A stretch of 35,882 bases of DNA. It comes from a virus. The DNA lies in the IMG/VR virus record IMGVR_UViG_3300013126_000110, positions 1-35,882 of that record. One strand, written 5' to 3'. Below the pieces are notes generated by a model. It was not told the origin of the DNA, ran no database searches, and was given only the letters and a program-made list of their open reading frames with translations. The position numbers were made by a program, and so were the translations under genes. Positions 1,794-35,882 of the stretch are shown here, one piece after another. The stretch's first letter is position 1; the number at the start of each line of letters is the position of its first letter.

Positions 1794-2108
1794 ATGCAAA
1801 AGAGAACTATTATCAAAAGAATTAAAACTATCATTGAGAACTATGGCTCATTTGATGTAGCAGAAGTACAAGCTGATTGCAGTCCATGTGTAACCGCACC
1901 AGGTAACCATACTCATTTAGCAGAGGGTTTTAACCTTAATGGTGTTACTGTTAATGTATATGCCCCAAATGGTTTTAGTGGCGACCCGATTGATGATTAT
2001 GAGTTAAATTACGAAGAATTATCAAAGGACATATTGGAAGAGATTTTGTTTTTGGCTGACTTATTTGAAACAGACCAAGAAAAAACTATAAAAAGATGTG
2101 CAAATTAA
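1794..2108 (+). CDS. Hypothetical protein, 104 aa
   Basis: An unrecognised acidic protein with a short basic N-terminus (MQKRTIIKRIKTII) and two close cysteines in ADCSPCVTAPGNHTH (about residues 28-42). With the nearby histidines these could bind a metal, but that is a guess. Its stop lies inside a palindromic terminator that also contains the next promoter's -33 box. Confidence 0.78.
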   Translation: MQKRTIIKRIKTIIENYGSFDVAEVQADCSPCVTAPGNHTHLAEGFNLNGVTVNVYAPNGFSGDPIDDYELNYEELSKDILEEILFLADLFETDQEKTIKRCAN

Positions 2109-2116
2109 TTTGCACA
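2097..2116 (+). terminator. Palindromic terminator overlapping next promoter
   Basis: Perfect 20-bp palindrome TGTGCAAATT/AATTTGCACA followed by TTT. The -33 TTTG (2109-2112) of the next promoter is inside its 3' arm. Confidence 0.6.
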
Positions 2117-2140
2117 TTTAAAAAAAAATTACTACATTTG
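2109..2140 (+). promoter_or_regulatory. Host-type promoter, near-leaderless
   Basis: TTTG at 2109-2112 and TACATTTG at 2133-2140. The start at 2145 is 4 nt downstream. Confidence 0.78.
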
Positions 2141-2144
2141 TATT

Positions 2145-2423
2145 ATGGAATTAATATTTGTAAAACAAGATAGCACTGAATGGGAATATATATGGGACTT
2201 CGTTGCTAAACACCCTATCAATGAGGGGTTGGAAGAACCTAAAATAGCATTGAATGAGGGTGAAGCCTGGCAGTATATGGGAAGTTTTAAAAATAAAAAT
2301 AGACTAATACATGAGTTTAGACATAGGTATCACCCAAATACACAGAATGTATATAATCTTACATTTAATGGTAGTGATAGTTTTACTGATGAACAAATAG
2401 ATAAAACAATAAAAATAAAATGA
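2145..2423 (+). CDS. Hypothetical protein, 92 aa
   Basis: Unrecognised small acidic protein with several tryptophans (WEYIWDF near residue 12, WQYMG near residue 42). It is probably translated from a leaderless mRNA. Its TGA overlaps the ATG of the next gene, so the two form an operon. Confidence 0.76.
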   Translation: MELIFVKQDSTEWEYIWDFVAKHPINEGLEEPKIALNEGEAWQYMGSFKNKNRLIHEFRHRYHPNTQNVYNLTFNGSDSFTDEQIDKTIKIK

Positions 2424-2695
2424 TACAACAAGACCAACTAAACATTAAAAAGGTGAATGATAAATATAGGATAATGCTACGAGAGTCGTTTCTATTATTC
2501 TTTGATAAGTGGGTTGAGGTAACGTGGAAAGGTGAAGACCAAAAAGAAGTTCCGATTGAATTTAATTCTTTCAATGAAGCAAAAGAGTTTATCGTAATGG
2601 TGACACCAATGACTATACACAAAGGTGTACATGGGGTGCCGAGGGTCGGTGAAAATAAAAAAAGTTTAAGAATTATTTGGAAGATTGAAAAATAA
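2420..2695 (+). CDS. Hypothetical protein, 91 aa
   Basis: Unrecognised. It is the second gene of the 2145-2695 operon with an ATGA overlap. It has a central WVEVTWKGEDQKEV strand pair and a basic C-terminus. The end of the gene contains the -33 box (2676-2679) of the promoter for the downstream non-coding RNA. Confidence 0.76.
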   Translation: MIQQDQLNIKKVNDKYRIMLRESFLLFFDKWVEVTWKGEDQKEVPIEFNSFNEAKEFIVMVTPMTIHKGVHGVPRVGENKKSLRIIWKIEK

Positions 2696-2707
2696 TTCGT
2701 ACATTTA
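2676..2707 (+). promoter_or_regulatory. Host-type promoter for the 2.7-2.96 kb RNA
   Basis: TTTG at 2676-2679 and TACATTTA at 2700-2707, with the standard 20-bp gap. The last base of the -7 box departs from TTTG. No open reading frame follows, so the product is an RNA. Confidence 0.65.
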
Positions 2708-2715
2708 TAAAAAAA

Positions 2716-2960
2716 TTGTTGTGAGGGCATCTTGGGTATGCTACCTAATTAATTGGAGAACCAACATAGTTTAGGAGAAGATAGGTTCGATTCCTATGAC
2801 AACAACAGAGGGTACAAAGTACAAAACTCCTACTGACTATTAACTTAGAAGTAGAAGTATATTAGAAGGCGAGTAAAGTTCTCGAATGTACCCACTAATT
2901 TTGTTTGTTTGTTTTGATTGATTACAGCAGATGGGTATCCGTAATGGATACCCATTTGTC
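2716..2960 (+). ncRNA. Structured RNA with a 5' tRNA-like domain
   Basis: A promoter ends at 2707 and a strong terminator hairpin lies at 2931-2955, with no open frame between. The 5' part folds like a tRNA: acceptor 2717-2723/2798-2804, D stem 2726-2729/2739-2742 with a GG-bearing loop, anticodon stem CCTAA 2744-2748/TTAGG 2771-2775, a 5-nt variable loop, and a classic T arm ATAGG-TTCGATT-CCTAT (2781-2797). The anticodon loop is 22 nt instead of 7 and contains the hairpin TTGG-AGAA-CCAA (2753-2764). No CCA is encoded at the 3' side. The 3' part forms a three-way junction: GGGTACA 2810-2816/TGTACCC 2887-2893, enclosing CTACT 2830-2834/AGTAG 2850-2854 and CGAG 2870-2873/CTCG 2881-2884. Function unknown. 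Confidence 0.7.
2931..2960 (+). terminator. Rho-independent terminator of the structured RNA
   Basis: Perfect 10-bp stem ATGGGTATCC/GGATACCCAT with loop GTAAT, followed by TTGTCATTT. Confidence 0.85.
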
Positions 2961-2985
2961 ATTTATAGAAACAAAGAAAAGGGGG

Positions 2986-3228
2986 TTATTTCAACCCCAC
3001 CATTTGTTTTAATTCCTTTTTAATTTCCTTTGCTTTTTCACCTCGCCATGTACCAGCATTTGATAAAAAGTAAAGTATAAGTGTTTTAGCATTGTCACTA
3101 CCATAACCATCGGTTACATTTGCCACACAGTGCATTGCATCCAAATAAGGTTTAGCACCATAATTTACTTTTGTTCCCCAATCTTTGCTGATTTCTCTTG
3201 CGATTTGATAAATAGGTCTGTTTGTCAT
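2986..3228 (-). CDS. Hypothetical protein, 80 aa
   Basis: A small soluble protein starting MTNRPIYQIAREISKDWGTKV, with a central SDNAKTLILYFLSNAGTW segment. The pattern resembles small conserved phage proteins of unknown function. It is the only minus-strand gene in the first 8.5 kb and has its own host-type promoter (3257-3287). Confidence 0.82.
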   Translation of the reverse strand: MTNRPIYQIAREISKDWGTKVNYGAKPYLDAMHCVANVTDGYGSDNAKTLILYFLSNAGTWRGEKAKEIKKELKQMVGLK

Positions 3229-3256
3229 ATTATATTTGTTTAATTGTTTAACGATA

Positions 3257-3287
3257 CAAAGATAAACAAATATTTTTAATTTCCAAA
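3257..3287 (-). promoter_or_regulatory. Host-type promoter, minus strand
   Basis: Reading the minus strand: TTTG (CAAA at 3284-3287), 19 bp, then TATCTTTG (CAAAGATA at 3257-3264), followed by the A-rich leader of the gene starting at 3228. Confidence 0.82.
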
Positions 3288-3342
3288 TAAAATAATGAAA
3301 AAAATAAAAAATAATTTTTTTTTAAAAAAAGTTGCAAAAAAA

Positions 3343-3373
3343 TTTGCAGATTAAAAAATAAACTCTATCTTTG
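3343..3373 (+). promoter_or_regulatory. Host-type promoter
   Basis: TTTG 3343-3346, 19 bp, TATCTTTG 3366-3373, then the typical leader GTCGTAATCATTAAAC before the ATG at 3400. Confidence 0.83.
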
Positions 3374-3399
3374 TGTCGTAATCATTAAACAAACACAAA

Positions 3400-4239
3400 A
3401 TGGAAACTTTAAATTTAACAGAAGTAATTTTAGCAAATGTAGAAAAAAGCAATAAAGAGATTGCTGAAATGTTAAACATCAGTACACCAAGAGTGTCTTG
3501 CACACGAAATTGGCTTGTTAGAAAGGGTTTAGTTGAAAATACGACTAAGACTACCACAAAGTCAAAGAAAGAGCGTCTAAGCAACGCTATGAGCAAATTA
3601 GGTAAAACTACAAATACATACGTTAACCACAAAGGAGAGAACAAAGAAGTAGCACGTGTTAAAATGACAAACCACGTTGTTAATAGTGGGGTTGTTGGTT
3701 TAGTACCTACATTACCAAATACTGGTTGGGTTATCGAACAAAAAATTGCAAGTCAATTACCACAAATGGCTTTTATAGGTGCAGAAATTGATAAGTTGAC
3801 TTATAAATATATGAGAAACAATCTTAAAAATACCGATTTAATTGCTACAACACATTTTGGTAAGATAGGTGAATTAATCTATGGTAAAACAGAAAATAGT
3901 TATGCACATTTGATTTTAGATTATTGCGGTCACTTGTCAACTTTTAGCAAAGAAATTGAGTATGCTATTAACAATGATATTGTAAAAGTTGGTGGTATTA
4001 TGGCAATTACTTTTGGAAAGCCTTTGAGAGGTTTAGATAGTCAAACAACTAAAATCAAAGGTTTAGCACCTATAAACAATGGTGATACACGTTGTATGTC
4101 TGATAGAGGTATTGAGAACTACTTTGCAAAAATTACGGGTTGGAACTACGAAGTAAAAGAAATTTTTTATTATAGTGATAAAAAAGAAAATGGCAAAGGT
4201 TATCCAATGACTTTGGTTATAATACAAAGAATAAAATAA
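3400..4239 (+). CDS. HTH protein with methyltransferase-like C-terminal domain, 279 aa
   Basis: Residues about 5-48 look like a winged-helix or HTH domain (SNKEIAEMLNISTPRVSCTRNWLVRKGLV). After a basic linker, residues about 110-279 look like a class I SAM-methyltransferase-type Rossmann fold: MAFIGAEIDKLTYKYM resembles the acidic motif II region, and HLILDYCG lies where a motif IV strand would be. A classic GxGxG loop is not evident, so activity is uncertain. A DNA-bound modification enzyme or a regulator built on a dead methyltransferase are both possible. It has its own promoter and a terminator that doubles as the next promoter. Confidence 0.55.
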   Translation: METLNLTEVILANVEKSNKEIAEMLNISTPRVSCTRNWLVRKGLVENTTKTTTKSKKERLSNAMSKLGKTTNTYVNHKGENKEVARVKMTNHVVNSGVVGLVPTLPNTGWVIEQKIASQLPQMAFIGAEIDKLTYKYMRNNLKNTDLIATTHFGKIGELIYGKTENSYAHLILDYCGHLSTFSKEIEYAINNDIVKVGGIMAITFGKPLRGLDSQTTKIKGLAPINNGDTRCMSDRGIENYFAKITGWNYEVKEIFYYSDKKENGKGYPMTLVIIQRIK

Positions 4240-25892: not shown

Positions 25893-25917
25893 AAGGGCCT
25901 CAGTTGAGGCCTTTTTA
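25893..25917 (+). terminator. Rho-independent terminator
   Basis: GGCCTC (25896-25901) / GAGGCC (25906-25911), loop AGTT, followed by TTTTTATT. Confidence 0.9.
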
Positions 25918-25936
25918 TTATTAAAAAAGTTGTATT

Positions 25937-26443
25937 ATGAAATGGAAAAGAAATGACAAAGTTATCGATGAACCAATATTAGAATATATGGAAAAAGTTA
26001 TTGAAGAAGAATTAGCAAAAGGTTATTCATTAAGAGTATCCATAGGTACTGATTCTCAAAAAGCTGAAAAAGGAACATATAAATTTGCTACTGTTATCCT
26101 TATCAAAACATCTGAAGATTTAGGTGGTGTTATTGTAGGTCGTGGTGGTCTAATCATATCATCAACTTATTACCATGGTTTTAAACAAACTAACAAAGAA
26201 TTAGTAAACGAAAGAATGGTTTTTGAAGTTGGTAAATCAGTAGAGGTAGCTTATGAATTAGCACCGTTGTTAGATTTATATGAAATACCATTAGAAATAC
26301 ACGCTGATATAAACCCAGACCCTAACCATGAATCAAACAAAGCTCTACAACAAGCTGTTGGTTATATTTTAGGTATGGGTTATGAGTTTAAAGTAAAACC
26401 AGACGCATTTGCTGCCAGCAATGGAGCAGATAAATTTTGCTAA
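25937..26443 (+). CDS. YkuK/DUF458-type RNase H-like protein, 168 aa
   Basis: RNase H-like N-terminus SLRVSIGTDSQ (Asp39 in the first strand), a middle of the form RMVFEVGKSVEVAYEL, and a C-terminal LEIHADINPDPNHESNKALQQAVGYILGMGYEFKVKPDAF segment. This fits the DUF458 (YkuK) family as I recall it. The reaction is not established for the family. The last 13 codons (GAC at 26402 to TAA 26441-26443) are recoded relative to a second copy of the same 3' end at 27244-27287. The gene is intact here because a GIY-YIG element replaced its 3' end. Confidence 0.8.
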   Translation: MKWKRNDKVIDEPILEYMEKVIEEELAKGYSLRVSIGTDSQKAEKGTYKFATVILIKTSEDLGGVIVGRGGLIISSTYYHGFKQTNKELVNERMVFEVGKSVEVAYELAPLLDLYEIPLEIHADINPDPNHESNKALQQAVGYILGMGYEFKVKPDAFAASNGADKFC

Positions 26444-26469
26444 GATTTATCCTTTGCAGAAGTTGCCGC

Positions 26470-26478
26470 ATATTTATA
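26470..26478 (+). promoter_or_regulatory. ATATTTATA element
   Basis: ATATTTATAAATA, 12 nt before the endonuclease start at 26491. Confidence 0.6.
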
Positions 26479-26490
26479 AATAAAAAACTT

Positions 26491-27243
26491 ATGAAATATT
26501 TTATTTATAAAACAACAAATTTAGTAAACAACAAAACCTATATAGGTATTCATCAAACTGAAAACATTGATGATGGTTATATAGGTAGTGGTTTACATTT
26601 TTTACGTGCAGTTAAAAAATATGGTAAAGACAATTTTAAAAGAGAAATATTAGAATTTTGTTCATCATATGATGAATTAATAGAAAAAGAAAAATTATTA
26701 GTTAATGAAGAATGGGTAAAAGATAAAACTAATTATAATCTTAAAACTGGAGGACAAAGTACTGGTATATTATCAGATTTATCTAAAAAGAAAATATCTG
26801 AAACGTTAAAAGAAAAATACGCTAGTGGTAAATTAGTCCCTAGGGCAACAGCACCTTATATTGCTACTGACGAACAAAAAAATAAAATTTCTCAAACATT
26901 AAAGAAAAAATACGATAGTGGTGAAATAATATCAAAAACTAAAGGTAAAGAGCCATGGAATAAAGGTAAGAAAGGTGTTCAAGTCAGTTGGAATAAAGGT
27001 GTTTCAACTGGTCCGAAAACTGATGAACAAAAAAATAAAATCTCTGAAACATTAAAAAAACATTATACAGAAAATGAACATAAAAGTAAAGGTAAAGAGC
27101 CATGGAATAAAGGTAAGAAAGGTGTTCAAGTCAGTTGGAATAAAGGTTTAAAACAACCACAAATTGAATGTCCGTATTGTAAAAAAATGGTTGACGCTGG
27201 AAACGGTAAACGTTGGCATTTTGAAAACTGTAAATTAAAATAA
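26491..27243 (+). CDS. GIY-YIG homing endonuclease, 250 aa
   Basis: N-terminal GIY-YIG domain: FIYKTTNLVNNKTYIGIH (residues 4-21), GYIGSG (about 29-34), a conserved KKYGKDNFKREILE helix (about 43-56) and LVNEEWVKDKTNYNLKTGG near residue 71-90. The middle has two NUMOD3-like PWNKGKKGVQ repeats, encoded by an exact 61-bp DNA repeat (26940-27000 and 27087-27147). The C-terminus is a zinc-finger-like CPYCKKMVDAGNGKRWHFENC. The start at 26491 is preferred over an upstream in-frame ATG at 26437, which overlaps the target gene. The likely target is the YkuK 3' end. Confidence 0.9.
   Translation: MKYFIYKTTNLVNNKTYIGIHQTENIDDGYIGSGLHFLRAVKKYGKDNFKREILEFCSSYDELIEKEKLLVNEEWVKDKTNYNLKTGGQSTGILSDLSKKKISETLKEKYASGKLVPRATAPYIATDEQKNKISQTLKKKYDSGEIISKTKGKEPWNKGKKGVQVSWNKGVSTGPKTDEQKNKISETLKKHYTENEHKSKGKEPWNKGKKGVQVSWNKGLKQPQIECPYCKKMVDAGNGKRWHFENCKLK
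26940..27147 (+). repeat. 61-bp direct repeat inside endonuclease gene
   Basis: The 61 bp at 26940-27000 recur identically at 27087-27147. They encode two copies of the WNKGKKGVQVSWNKG DNA-binding motif; exact identity points to a recent duplication. Confidence 0.9.
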
Positions 27244-27287
27244 CAGACGCTTGGGCTGCATCATCAGCTGCCGATAAAAAATGTTAA
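27244..27287 (+). pseudogene. Displaced 3' end of the YkuK gene
   Basis: CA GAC then codons for ADAWAASSAADKKC and TAA at 27285-27287. This aligns codon for codon with the active end at 26402-26443 (DAFAASNGADKFC). The first half of the gene is missing here, so it is a remnant displaced by the homing element. Its DAWAASSAADKKC looks closer to the family consensus, as expected for the original end. Confidence 0.85.
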
Positions 27288-27317
27288 GTCAACTTGATGT
27301 TTTGAAAGTTTATTTGT

Positions 27318-27326
27318 ATATTTATA
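27318..27326 (+). promoter_or_regulatory. ATATTTATA element
   Basis: ATATTTATAAATA, 14 nt before the start at 27341. Confidence 0.58.
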
Positions 27327-27340
27327 AATAAAGATTAGGT

Positions 27341-27499
27341 ATGGCAAAGAAATATGGATTAAAGGGTAAATCTGGTGAAATTATAACAACAACAGTTGCT
27401 GAAAGTTTCGAGGAAGCTGTTCAATATTTTTCTTTTAGAAAAAAATTTGACAGATATGTTTTGTTACATTTGTTTGAAGTGGTTTTATTAACAAATTAA
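27341..27499 (+). CDS. Small protein, 52 aa
   Basis: MAKKYGLKGKSGEIITTTVA at the start, then a helical FEEAVQYFSFRKKFDRY segment and a hydrophobic end (VLLHLFEVVLLTN). Reads like a small phage protein of unknown function. It is preceded by an ATATTTATA box at the usual distance. Confidence 0.65.
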   Translation: MAKKYGLKGKSGEIITTTVAESFEEAVQYFSFRKKFDRYVLLHLFEVVLLTN

Positions 27500-30222: not shown

Positions 30223-33200
30223 TTATTTTGTTTTTCTAGTTTTTGCTTGTTTGATAATCAGCTCTTCTTTTTTCTCGTCAAATGCGACCTCTATCGTTTC
30301 ACCTTCTTTGAAATTTTCATTTAAAATTTCATCAGCAACTGGGTCTTCAACATAATGTTGTATTGCTCTGGCTAACGGTCTGGCACCATATGCCTCATCA
30401 TAACCTTGTTTGCCTAAAAACTCGATTGCTTCTTTGGTTACATTTAGTTTATAACCCATTTCAATCACTCTTTCTTCTAGTTTTTCAATTTCTAAGTAAA
30501 TAATTTTATGTATATCTTCTTGTGTTAAACCTCTAAAAATAATTGCTTCATCAATACGGTTTAAGAACTCTGGTTTGAATTTTTTCTTTAGTGCTTTTTC
30601 AATAATTGAACGAGCTCTGTTTTCTTCACCAACAATTGATGCCGCTGTTTCAAACCCCATTGTTTTACCAAATGAATTAACTTCTTTAACGCCAATGTTT
30701 GATGTCATGATGATAAGTGAGTTTTTGAAATTAATTTTTCTACCTAATCCATCAGTTAAATGACCTTCATCTAATAATTGTAAAAGTATGTTGAATACGT
30801 CTTCGTGTGCTTTTTCAATTTCATCAAATAAAATAACACAATGTGGTTTTCTACGAACTTTTTCAGTCAACTGACCACCTTGGTCATAACCAACATAACC
30901 AGGAGGTGGACCAACAAGTCTTGATACTGAATGTTTCTCCATGTATTCTGACATGTCAATTCTAACAAGAGATTCTGGGTCACCATAAACTTGTTCAGCC
31001 AAAAGTTTAGCTAATAATGTCTTACCAACACCAGTTGGACCTAAGAAGATAAATGAACCAACTGGTTTATTTTTATCTTTGATTCCAATTCGGTTTCTTT
31101 TTATCGCTTTGATAACTTTTGTTACAGCATCGTCTTGTCCGATTACTTTACCCATCAATTCTTTGTCTAGGTTCATTAATCTTTTGCTTTCTTGTGTTGA
31201 TATCTTTGTTAATGGGATACCAGTCATCATAGATACTACTTCAGAGATGATTTCAATACCAACCTCTGTTACTTTTTTATCTAATTTGGCTTGCCAATCA
31301 GACATTGCTTTTTCTAAATCTTCGGTAACTTTTTTCTCTTCATCACGAAGTTTAGCTGCTTCCTCATATTTTTGTTTTAAGACAACTTCTTTTTTCTTTT
31401 CGTTTATCTCGTTTCTTTTAGCTTCTAATTCTTTAATATTGTCTGGTTTTTCAACACCAACATTTGTTGTCGCACCAGCTTCATCCAAAACATCAATGGC
31501 TTTATCTGGCATACTTCTATCCATAATGTATCTAGCGGATAGTTTAACACATTCTTCAATGGCTTCATCAGTATATTTTACTTTGTGGTGTTTTTCGTAT
31601 TTTTCTTTGATGTTGTTTAGGATGATTTTTGTTTCCTCTAATGTTGGTTCTTCAACAAGTACTTGTTGGAAACGTCTAGTCAATGCACCATCTTTCTCAA
31701 TATTCTCACGATATTCATCTAACGTTGTAGCACCTATTACTTGCAATTCACCCCTAGCCAAAGCTGGTTTGAAGATATTGGATGCGTCTAACGAACCAGA
31801 AGCGTTACCAGCACCTACAATAGTGTGTAACTCATCTATGAATAATACAACATCTGGGTTAGCTTTACATTCTTCTAATATCGCTTTCATTCTCTCTTCA
31901 AATTGACCACGGTATTTTGTACCAGCAACAATTGAAGCTAAATCCAAACTAAAAATTCTTTTATTGATAAGTGTTCTTGGTGCGTTTCCATCTTTAATAA
32001 GTTGTGCCAACCCTTCAACAATAGAAGTATTATGTGTTACAATATAATTGTCTGTAACGTATAAATGATTATCGTCTTCAATCATTATACATTTAGCCTC
32101 TTTTTTACCAATTAACTCTATATTAACAATGTTATTTTTAAGTGTTTTAGAATATTGGTAATTAGTTGGTATTTTTTCTTTTTTCCTCTCTAATAAGAAT
32201 AAATTTTTGGGTGAGTGATATCTAATAGATAAAACATAGGAAACTTGACCTAATTTTTTAACACCTTTATATGTGTAAGAGGTTTGTTTTTTACTTATAC
32301 TTGCAACACCACCAATAGACCAAATTAATTCTTGCATATCTTTAATTAACTTATAGCTAACGCTAGAATATTGTAATGTACCAGTTTTGGTAACAGTTCC
32401 ATCAGAATCCATTAACCCTTGTATTAAGGATATTTTTTGACTTAACGAGCCGTTTTTATATTTTTCTGGGATAAATTTATTATTTGATTTTGTTTCGGTT
32501 AAATGCAATAAATCAGTTTCTTCCAACAATGGGTGGATTCTATCATTTTTATAATATCTAGTTCTTTTTTCATTTAATATATCTTCAGATATATTAATTT
32601 TAAACGTGTTTGTTTTTACACCATTACCATTTATAGCTAATTTATAATCTAACCCAATTATTTCCTTAACATTTTCAACTATTTCTATATCATCGGTAGT
32701 GAGTGAAAGTTCATATTTACCAAAATGACCATCACCTAATAATAACCCCATTAAATAAGGGTCGATAATATAATCTAATTTTTCATCTTTAGTTATATTT
32801 TCAGACACCAAAGGTAATTTTAATTTATATTTGGTGTTTTCTAATTTATCCTTTATATCTAGCGTATTAATAATAGACCAAGATTTTTTTCTTTCTTTAC
32901 CTACTGGTACCCCATAAACTTTCCATAGGTGTTCACCACAAGCTTCAGTACTTCTACCGTCTTTAAAACTAATTCTATAAATATCTTTTTCACCTTGTGG
33001 ATATACACCAATTACTTTAGTTGTTTTACCTTCTGGTGTTAATACTTCATCACCAATATTTATTTCACCCATAGTTGTCCACCCATTAGGTGTTAATACC
33101 TTAGCATCTAGTGGTTGTGCTTTACCAACACCTGGTTCACCAATAAGAACTGGATTGTTTTTCTTTCTTCTAGATAAGATTTGAGAGACTCTTTTTATTT

Positions 33201-33828
33201 CAGATTCTCTACCAACAACTGGGTCAATCTCACCTCTTTCAACTGCTTTAGACACATCCCTACAGAAATTATCTAACACTGGTGTTTTACTTTTTGTGTC
33301 ACTAGGTTTTTGTTTCTTTTTAAATGATTCCATTTCATCACCATCATCATCTAACGCCCCATTTTTAATATCATCTGGTTTTTCACCTAACATAGTTTTT
33401 TTAAACTTTGGATATGTAACACCGATATTCGTCATGAAATCTACAATGGGTTGTTTTGAATTTAATATAGCCAACATGATGTGTGTTGTGTCAATCATAT
33501 TGTCATTAAGTTTTTCACACTCTTTGTCTAGTGTTTTTAAAATTGTTTTAGTTTCATCAGAAAAAGGTAAACTTCTTTTAACAGAATTATAACCTCTAGG
33601 TATTAAATCACTTTTTCTAACATAATCAGAAAGTTTATCATATAATTCTGATGTATCAACTTTTAATTTTTTTAACACTTTCGTGCATTCATTATCATCA
33701 TCCGATAAAATAGATAAGATAATATGTTCTGGTCTAACTTTTGAATCATCAAAGTTTTTAGCCTCTTTTATTGACTGATTCATGATTATCTTAACTTTTG
33801 GATAAATCTCTCTATTCATATAACCCAT
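30223..33828 (-). CDS. clpC: ClpC-type AAA+ unfoldase with intein, 1201 aa precursor
   Basis: Clp N-domain repeats (about 1-150). First AAA+ module: Walker A GEPGVGK (230-236) broken by an intein and resuming at Thr601 ([10 protein letters not shown]), Walker B VLFIDE (661-666). Coiled-coil with UVR-like [14 protein letters not shown] (about 820-833). Second AAA+ module: Walker A GPTGVGKT (930-937), Walker B ILFDE (999-1003). MGF at 1057-1059 matches the place of the ClpP-binding tripeptide of ClpC/ClpA. The spliced length is 837 aa, normal for ClpC. It would unfold proteins in the host cytoplasm, probably feeding host ClpP, as no clpP is in this window. ClpC in a phage is unusual. Confidence 0.92.
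32029..33120 (-). mobile_element. Class 3 intein with LAGLIDADG endonuclease, 364 aa
   Basis: Inserted between Lys236 and Thr601 in the first Walker A motif. Intein residue 1 is Ala ([14 protein letters not shown]), the last is Asn364 (YIVTHN), and the next extein residue is Thr. The class 3 set is visible: Trp66 in block B (EHLW), Cys344 in block F (AKCIMIEDD) and Thr362 in block G (VTHN). Class 3 inteins start splicing from the block F Cys because they lack residue-1 Cys/Ser. Two LAGLIDADG motifs (LMGLLLGDG and IQGLMDSDG) show an intact homing endonuclease. Confidence 0.88.
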
Positions 33829-34183: not shown

Positions 34184-34651
34184 ATGATTCTAAAAAGAAA
34201 AGAAAAAGAAGGAGTAATAAAAGCAATTTATTCTTCATCAAACATTTGCGCATCAGTATATAATACTGTAACAAACGAATTAACAATTATTTTCAGCAAC
34301 GGTGGACAATACAAATACACTGATGTTGCAAAAACTGACTACATGCGTTTTGAAACTGCTGATAGTCAAGGTTCAGTATTGAACACACACATTAAAAAAT
34401 ATACTACTAATAAATTGGATAATGTTGATACTACTGAAATCTTAAAAGAAGTTGAACAACTAAAAGACCAAGAAGAACCACAAGTTACACCAGATGTTGC
34501 TGTAAAAGAAATGTTACAAAACATGAGTGATATTATCAGTAACTATCTTAAAAATGGTAACGTTACAACAGCGTCATTGGCTGGGTTAAAAGATAAAATC
34601 TCAACATTTGAGAAAGTTAAAAATCAAAAACCAGAAATTGTTCATGAATAA
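34184..34651 (+). CDS. KTSC-domain protein, 155 aa
   Basis: Residues about 11-66 match the KTSC pattern: SSSNICASVYNTVTNELTII, FSNGGQYKYTDV, ETADSQGSVLNTHIK. The domain's function is unknown. A helical acidic C-terminal part follows (LKEVEQLKDQEEPQV). The stop (TAA 34649-34651) overlaps the ATG of the thyA remnant (34644). Confidence 0.8.
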   Translation: MILKRKEKEGVIKAIYSSSNICASVYNTVTNELTIIFSNGGQYKYTDVAKTDYMRFETADSQGSVLNTHIKKYTTNKLDNVDTTEILKEVEQLKDQEEPQVTPDVAVKEMLQNMSDIISNYLKNGNVTTASLAGLKDKISTFEKVKNQKPEIVHE

Positions 34652-34730
34652 TATTGACGTAAGATATCAAGAATTATTAAAAGACATTTTAGAAAATGGT
34701 ACTCGTAAAGGTGATAGAACTGGAACGTAA
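34644..34730 (+). pseudogene. Displaced 5' end of thyA
   Basis: Codes for MNNIDVRYQELLKDILENG and GTRKGDRTGT then TAA. It is the start of a thymidylate synthase, ending just after the DRTGT motif that holds the dUMP-phosphate Arg. Cut off by the homing element; the active start is at 35658. Overlaps the KTSC stop by 8 bp, the likely original layout. Confidence 0.88.
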
Positions 34731-34803: not shown

Positions 34804-35652
34804 ATGATTATATATAAAACAACAAATTTGATTAATAAAAAAATATATGTTGGTCAAGATAGTAATAATGACCCAGATTATCTAGGTTCTGGTAAAGCAC
34901 TTAAAAGAGCTATAACAAAATACGGTAAGAACAACTTCGTTAAGGAAATCTTAGAGAATTGTAAAGATAAAGATGAATTAAATGAACGTGAAATTTATTG
35001 GATAAATGAGTTGGATAGCACTAACAGAAAAATAGGTTACAACATATCTAAAGGTGGTGCCGAGGGTGATAGAGAAGCTGGTTTTAAAATAGCTAAACAA
35101 GGTGTTTACAATTATTGGATTGAAAAATTTGGTGTTGATATCGCAAACGAAAAGTTAAAAGAACAAAAACAAAAACTTTCTAATCATAATAAACAAAACC
35201 AACCAGATTTAATTAAAAAGGGTAGATATCAAATTTGGGTTGATAAATACGGAAAAGACGTTGCTGATATTAAACAAGCTGAGTGGAAAAAAAAGATTTC
35301 AGACTACCAACAAAAGAAACTTAAAGATGGTTGGTCACATACTGATGAGGCTAAAGAAAAAATTAAAAATTCATCATTAGGTAGAACACATAGTGAGGAA
35401 TCTAAGGAAAAAATGAGAAAACCTAAACCATTAGGTTTTTCAGATAAGATTTCTAAAACAAAAAAAGGTATAAGTATTGGACCATCTAAACATAAGAAAC
35501 CAGTTAACCAATTTTCTATTGGTGGTGAGTTAATACAAGAATGGTTATCAATTAGTGAGGCCGAAAAAGAATTAAAAATATATAACATTAGTGCTGCGTG
35601 TAAAGGAAAACAAGAGACGGCTGGTGGTTTTATTTGGGGATATAAAAATTAA
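34804..35652 (+). CDS. GIY-YIG homing endonuclease, 282 aa
   Basis: GIY-YIG nuclease domain at the N-terminus: [19 protein letters not shown] (1-19), [21 protein letters not shown] (about 25-46) and [19 protein letters not shown] near residue 65-85. Then a helical, Lys-rich linker, NUMOD3-like [19 protein letters not shown] and a C-terminal NUMOD1/IENR1-like domain ([42 protein letters not shown]). It is 5 nt before the active thyA start. Homing endonucleases of this type cut cognate genes lacking the insertion. Confidence 0.9.
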
Positions 35653-35657
35653 AAATT

Positions 35658-35882
35658 ATGAATAATATAGACAAGGATTACACAAACTTATTGCAAGATA
35701 TACTTGATAACGGAGTTAAAAAAGAAACAAGGAACGGGTCAACCATTTCTGTCTTTGGGAGACAAATTAGACACAAGATGTCAGAAGGGTTTCCTCTACT
35801 CACAACAAAGAAAATGTATTTCAAAGGCATAGTAACAGAATTGTTATATTTTCTTAAAGGTAATACTAGTATTGAATACTTA
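35658..35882 (+). CDS. thyA: Thymidylate synthase, 5' part (runs off the window)
   Basis: 75 codons are visible: [38 protein letters not shown], then [26 protein letters not shown], a clear ThyA N-terminal domain (dUMP to dTMP using methylene-tetrahydrofolate). The usual DRTGTGT loop reads ETRNGST, one residue shorter; an Arg is kept nearby. The first ~26 codons were delivered by the homing element and differ from the remnant at 34644. Confidence 0.92.

Follow-up and report, generated by a model that had tools for sequence, protein, structure and literature searches.

The window analysed here spans the full 35,882 bases of a virus record from IMG/VR, and all features of the locus lie on its plus strand. 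The gene at 25937-26443 encodes a YkuK/DUF458-type RNase H-like protein (PF04308, Pfam E 2e-26). The body of this gene, comprising codons 1-155 (25937-26401), is native to the phage, as 154 of its 155 residues are the same in an insert-free sister phage. The ykuK gene in use terminates at 26443 with DAFAASNGADKFC and a stop codon, a carried replacement 3' end (26402-26443) that is in frame with the body. The left junction is marked by the seven bases CAGACGC (26400-26406), which recur identically at 27244-27250. The carried end is followed by a spacer (26444-26490) that contains a promoter-like motif, ATATTTATA, at 26470-26478, and then by the gene of a GIY-YIG homing endonuclease of 250 aa (26491-27243). 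A second ykuK end, the displaced native one, starts directly at the endonuclease stop (27244-27287); its DNA reads CAGACGCTTGGGCTGC...TGTTAA and its translation DAWAASSAADKKC followed by a stop. A frame check found no in-frame start codon for this remnant, which, judged from sequence alone, is probably untranslated. Between the carried and the remnant end, 9/13 codons differ and 9/13 residues are kept. An earlier sequence-only reading had described a second GIY-YIG element with tandem ykuK ends, and its coordinates, the remnant and the flanking CAGACGC copies are confirmed. Its statement that most residues are kept also held; its count of at least 10 of 13 differing codons failed narrowly, and the alanine that it placed before DAWAASS is not encoded, since the frame reads ...IKIT-DAW.

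The native state of the locus is provided by L001, a contig from an IMG/VR metagenome that belongs to a sister phage and carries ykuK without the insert. Over codons 1-155, the two ykuK genes differ at 35 of 465 bases and at a single residue, whereas over codons 156-169 they differ at 19 of 42 bases and 4 of 13 residues (Fisher tests of end versus body divergence, p = 1e-9 for bases and 1e-4 for residues). The 13-residue end of L001 is that of the remnant (13/13 residues the same, 5/44 nt different) and not the end used by the window gene. The DNA 3' of the remnant is collinear with L001, without gaps over the join, and includes the native downstream gene (27341-27499) that follows the uninterrupted ykuK of L001. 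Because the remnant matches L001 and its flank is collinear, the native ykuK end is the outer copy, and the end in use arrived with the insert; the earlier claim that the 3' end had been replaced therefore held. Since the L001 end is that of the remnant, the insert is a compact unit made of a replacement 3' end, a promoter-like motif and an endonuclease. It lies at the KP|DA codons near the 3' end of ykuK, where it brings a divergent, in-frame 13-codon end, the spacer and the GIY-YIG gene, with the native end pushed behind. The exact donor of the carried end was not found, the best DNA identity being 74%.

This arrangement could also be read as a group I intron whose endonuclease is intron-encoded and whose splicing joins the ykuK body to the outer end. 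In favour of this reading, the insert, like phage introns, is located within the ancestral frame and encodes an endonuclease, and codons 1-155 (465 nt) together with a 42-nt remnant give the 507-nt length of L001. However, no Rfam match was obtained in 25900-27450 up to E = 1, and the opening bases of the insert suffice to finish the ykuK reading frame, stop codon included, which all but excludes an intron. Consistently, six related loci searched for intron RNA gave no Rfam match at gathering level.

The target codons of ykuK belong to a constrained stretch of the gene end, in which the Asp of AD is invariant in 25 relatives. Homing enzymes tend to target conserved sites, and the constraint on these codons fits that preference. 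The predicted YkuK structure (mean pLDDT 81) shows an RNase H-like order of elements, and the swapped segment lies on its last helix. Because this helix has a pLDDT below 50 and RuvC and RNase H are matched only weakly in Foldseek, the structure supports no claim.

The endonuclease reading frame runs from the ATG at 26491 to the stop at 27243, and an upstream TTG at 26437 is not needed. Its assignment rests on alignment, on PHROG 314 (homing endonuclease, E 8e-43) and on the GIY-YIG catalytic domain (PF01541, E 1.5e-5, above the cut-off), so that the domain criterion for a Seg-like free-standing endonuclease is met. The alignment shows repeated KGKEPWNKGKKG-type motifs, a zinc-finger-like CPYC...H...C end at the C-terminus, and invariance of E67 and N83, along with other residues, across six relatives; no solved structure matching the protein by sequence was found. 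The promoter-like motif of the spacer precedes 13 of the 52 ORFs of the window, compared with 5 of 382 ORF-interior 70-mers, and similar spacers are present in L034, L037 and L090. The motif sits shortly 5' of start codons on both strands. A role as a T4-type late promoter was considered; ATATTTATA is an upstream motif that this phage itself uses commonly, and the class to which it belongs is undecided.

Tandem ends are not restricted to the window. In a scan of 70 ykuK loci, a second ykuK end scored above background in four only, namely the window, L008, L009 and L090 (scores of 43-54, background maximum 33). Given the match of 13/13 residues to the insert-free sister and the restriction to four of 70 loci, the tandem ends of the window are not due to chance. 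L009 and L090 each possess a replaced end, an endonuclease and a remnant. L008 and L010 form a second occupied/empty pair, in which the L008 insert cleanly separates AAAGTTAA from ACCAGATGCG, at the KP/DA codons as in the window; the insert-free alleles proposed earlier as a check were thus found in L001 for the window and in L010 for L008. All four remnants start within a few bases of one another, at the KP/DA codons, and in 4/4 cases the remnant is closer than the carried end to the nearest insert-free relative. This last result is clear for the window and L008 and narrow for L009; at 42-45 nt the remnants are short, and for L090 and L009 the comparison is less decisive than for the window and L008.

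The L008 insert consists of a replaced end and a spacer, without an endonuclease, and tblastn detected no endonuclease remains in its 165-bp filler. The sequence-only reading had named tandem ends without an endonuclease as a result that would refute it, and L008 meets this description on its face. Yet L008 keeps the replaced end and spacer at the same point, and its insert is best read, with good likelihood, as an element that lost its endonuclease and not as a refutation. In a tree of ykuK gene bodies, the labelled cases require 5 changes, at least 4 of which are forced by supported branches, and the tandem ends occur in four distinct ykuK lineages.

These data bear on a rival scenario that starts with local duplication of the ykuK 3' end in tandem; an endonuclease gene would have entered between the two copies afterwards, and the copies would have diverged by drift. 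The arrangement alone, with two ends and an insert between them, would look identical, and the carried and remnant ends do have 9/13 residues in common. However, the native-looking copy is the outer, unused one, and the divergent copy is the one in use. Had both copies drifted, the unused one should have decayed, yet its five nucleotide changes from the L001 end are all synonymous. Furthermore, four ykuK lineages acquired this layout separately, each time with an endonuclease of the same type or its scar. Duplication first is accordingly very unlikely.

The association between endonuclease and gene end extends beyond the cases with a remnant. Wherever the gene upstream of a close endonuclease can be read, it is a ykuK gene at a distance of 35-84 bp; the endonuclease of L037, which is cut at the contig end, is likewise found behind ykuK. 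In L085-L088, the YkuK protein is of a longer type, only 21-26% identical to that of the window, whereas the endonucleases are 58-63% identical, which shows that the endonuclease moved horizontally between distant ykuK genes while keeping its place. No remnant was seen in L034, L037 or L085-L088; because several family members lack it, part of the element picture rests on remnant decay. Another locus, L023 (5532-5600), has a ykuK gene without an endonuclease, whose end, ESYASSNIADKLC, differs from those of close relatives. Its spacer has TTTATCCT...GTTGC in common with that of the window and is maybe the scar of a lost element. A TATCCT spacer is common to the window, L008 and L023; it may be a scar of the element, although with only three cases this is no more than a possibility.

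The same design was looked for in 154 distinct GIY-YIG loci: the end of the gene upstream of the endonuclease was compared with the DNA that follows the endonuclease, and the start of the gene downstream with the DNA that precedes it. Beyond ykuK, replaced 3' ends were found at a phoH gene (L112, PF02562 E 2e-43), at an unnamed 175-aa gene (L242) and at a primase-like gene (L249). In L249, the primase-like gene with the GIY-YIG element at its 3' end spans 1956-4040; the remnant is fused in frame to the C-terminus of the endonuclease, which is frameshifted. As this gene has no Pfam match, the name "primase-like" rests solely on its zinc-ribbon-like start.

Replaced 5' ends were found at thyA in the window, L232 and L233 and at an RNA ligase gene in L235, L307 and L308. 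In the window, this mirrored case consists of a remnant of the native thyA 5' end (MNNIDVRYQELLKDILENGTRKGDRTGT and a stop, 34646-34730), a GIY-YIG endonuclease (34804-35652, PF01541 E 2.8e-6) and the replaced thyA 5' end (35658-35882), which runs off the contig; the full thyA in L232 matches PF00303 (E 3e-87). The thyA-element and ykuK-element endonucleases of the window share a 40% identical stretch. The thyA elements of L232 and L233/L234 are built as in the window, with an additional small ORF between remnant and endonuclease. The RNA ligase (PF09414) 5' ends are duplicated on both sides of the GIY-YIG gene in L235/L236, L307 and L308, which represent three distinct phages. For L112, L233 and L235, an identical copy was obtained from a separate sample (L114, L234 and L236, respectively), which speaks against assembly errors. 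The earlier proposal of a mirrored, 5'-end replacement at thyA therefore held and recurs in other phages, and that of a general type of mobile element is supported by further target genes showing either layout.

Several loci scored in this screen were not counted. The peptides of L099, L107, L113, L115, L125 and L111 resemble translated tRNA genes, a judgement made by eye on short ORFs beside the endonuclease, and L150 and L336 were discarded for background-level scores. The background of mismatched pairs includes a few true homologues, such as L121/L112 (phoH) and the window/L232 (thyA), so that its raw maxima are inflated. Apart from the GIY-YIG elements, the window carries a ClpB/ClpA-like gene on the minus strand (30223-33828) with an intein-like insert at about residues 225-604. 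This insert contains a LAGLIDADG_3 stretch at residues 464-523 and brings the number of homing-type elements in these 36 kb to three.

A second rival is intronless homing of the T4 Seg type, in which an endonuclease gene flanked by intact genes acts on a neighbouring target gene and the gene ends near it differ solely through co-conversion of flanking markers. The endonuclease family (PHROG 314) and the free-standing position agree with it, and donor resistance via sequence difference belongs to the known model (PMC12724721). However, co-conversion replaces the recipient copy and leaves no second gene end behind the endonuclease. Moreover, ten endonuclease loci of isolated phages, most of them T4-like, showed no duplicated gene ends (highest score 30). 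Such homing alone is thus a very improbable account.

The anatomy, the empty alleles, the recurrence and the horizontal movement of the endonuclease are shown. On this basis, and in the absence of cleavage, mobility and expression data, the insert is likely to be a free-standing element of a homing endonuclease that brings along a replacement end for the gene it targets. According to this model, during mixed infection the endonuclease would cut endonuclease-free ykuK alleles in or near the DNA for the conserved DAxA[AS]SxxAD. Repair of the break by recombination with the donor phage would then copy in the complete unit, with the ykuK body serving as the left arm and the old gene end with downstream DNA as the right arm. 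It is proposed that ykuK would stay functional because the carried end completes the reading frame, and that splitting of the site and recoding of the carried end would protect the new allele from renewed cutting. Later, the remnant may decay, or the endonuclease may be lost and the tandem ends remain. The cut position is unmapped, and GIY-YIG enzymes may cut tens of bases from the insertion point. Escape from self-cleavage by recoding, as invoked in the sequence-only reading, is an inference only: insertion alone likewise splits the site, and recoding as the cause of immunity, although possible, is inseparable from plain site disruption.

A bolder reading, towards which the evidence leans without much margin, is that phages hold a widespread and undescribed class of end-carrying homing elements, in 3' and 5' versions. 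Each endonuclease family would be specific for a single end of a single gene (ykuK 3', phoH 3', primase-like 3', thyA 5', RNA ligase 5'), and these elements would continually swap gene ends between lineages, leaving recoded ends and tandem scars even after endonuclease loss. On the likely reading given above, an endonuclease gene without intron or intein can enter a conserved coding site harmlessly by bringing the missing gene end. This would explain mosaic gene ends in phages, give a marker of past invasions, and tie intronless homing in phages to the gene-hybrid elements known from mitochondria of fungi. With occupied and empty alleles available in pairs, both cleavage and immunity are open to direct testing.

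The general idea is not new in itself, since both layouts are known from fungal mitochondria. Replaced or duplicated gene ends are unmentioned in the relevant sections of a review of T4 mobile elements (PMC2988022) and of surveys of phage homing endonucleases (PMC10448857, PMC12724721). No phage report of end-carrying elements was found in the literature searched, which was open-access only, so that an earlier report cannot be excluded. Mobile ORFs (mORFs) with a C-terminal gene end have been described in fungal mitochondria, at atp6 of Allomyces macrogynus and at atp6, atp9, cox2 and nad3 of Glomus (PMC3630166). As in the ykuK element, an endonuclease ORF and a foreign, recoded 3' end are inserted in frame, the native end is displaced behind and matches close relatives, and in the Glomus atp9 case the enzyme is also of the GIY-YIG type. 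The ykuK element fulfils three criteria of this kind: a carried gene end in frame with the native gene body, a displaced native end that follows the endonuclease and resembles relatives more than the carried end does (4/4 ykuK cases), and insert-free alleles in close relatives. In contrast, the fungal mORFs reside in mitochondrial genomes, in respiratory genes, and mostly encode LAGLIDADG enzymes, whereas the phage elements involve nucleic acid metabolism genes and Seg-type GIY-YIG enzymes. The likeness is an analogy of design only, and no descent is claimed. In Tremella mitochondria, as at thyA in the window, a mobile element brings along a 5' gene end and exchanges it; these elements are described as introns (PMC7315562), whereas the phage insert has no intron match. 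Among phage systems, the T4 seg genes are likewise free-standing GIY-YIG homing endonucleases of large phages that adjoin their target genes, but they have been described between intact genes and with a distant cleavage site, without mention of duplicated or replaced ends in the sections consulted (PMC2988022). Finally, mobE in nrdA of phage Aeh1 and other split-gene insertions also place an endonuclease within a nucleotide-metabolism coding region (PMC2988022); there, however, the gene is split into two working pieces, whereas the ykuK element restores a full-length gene.
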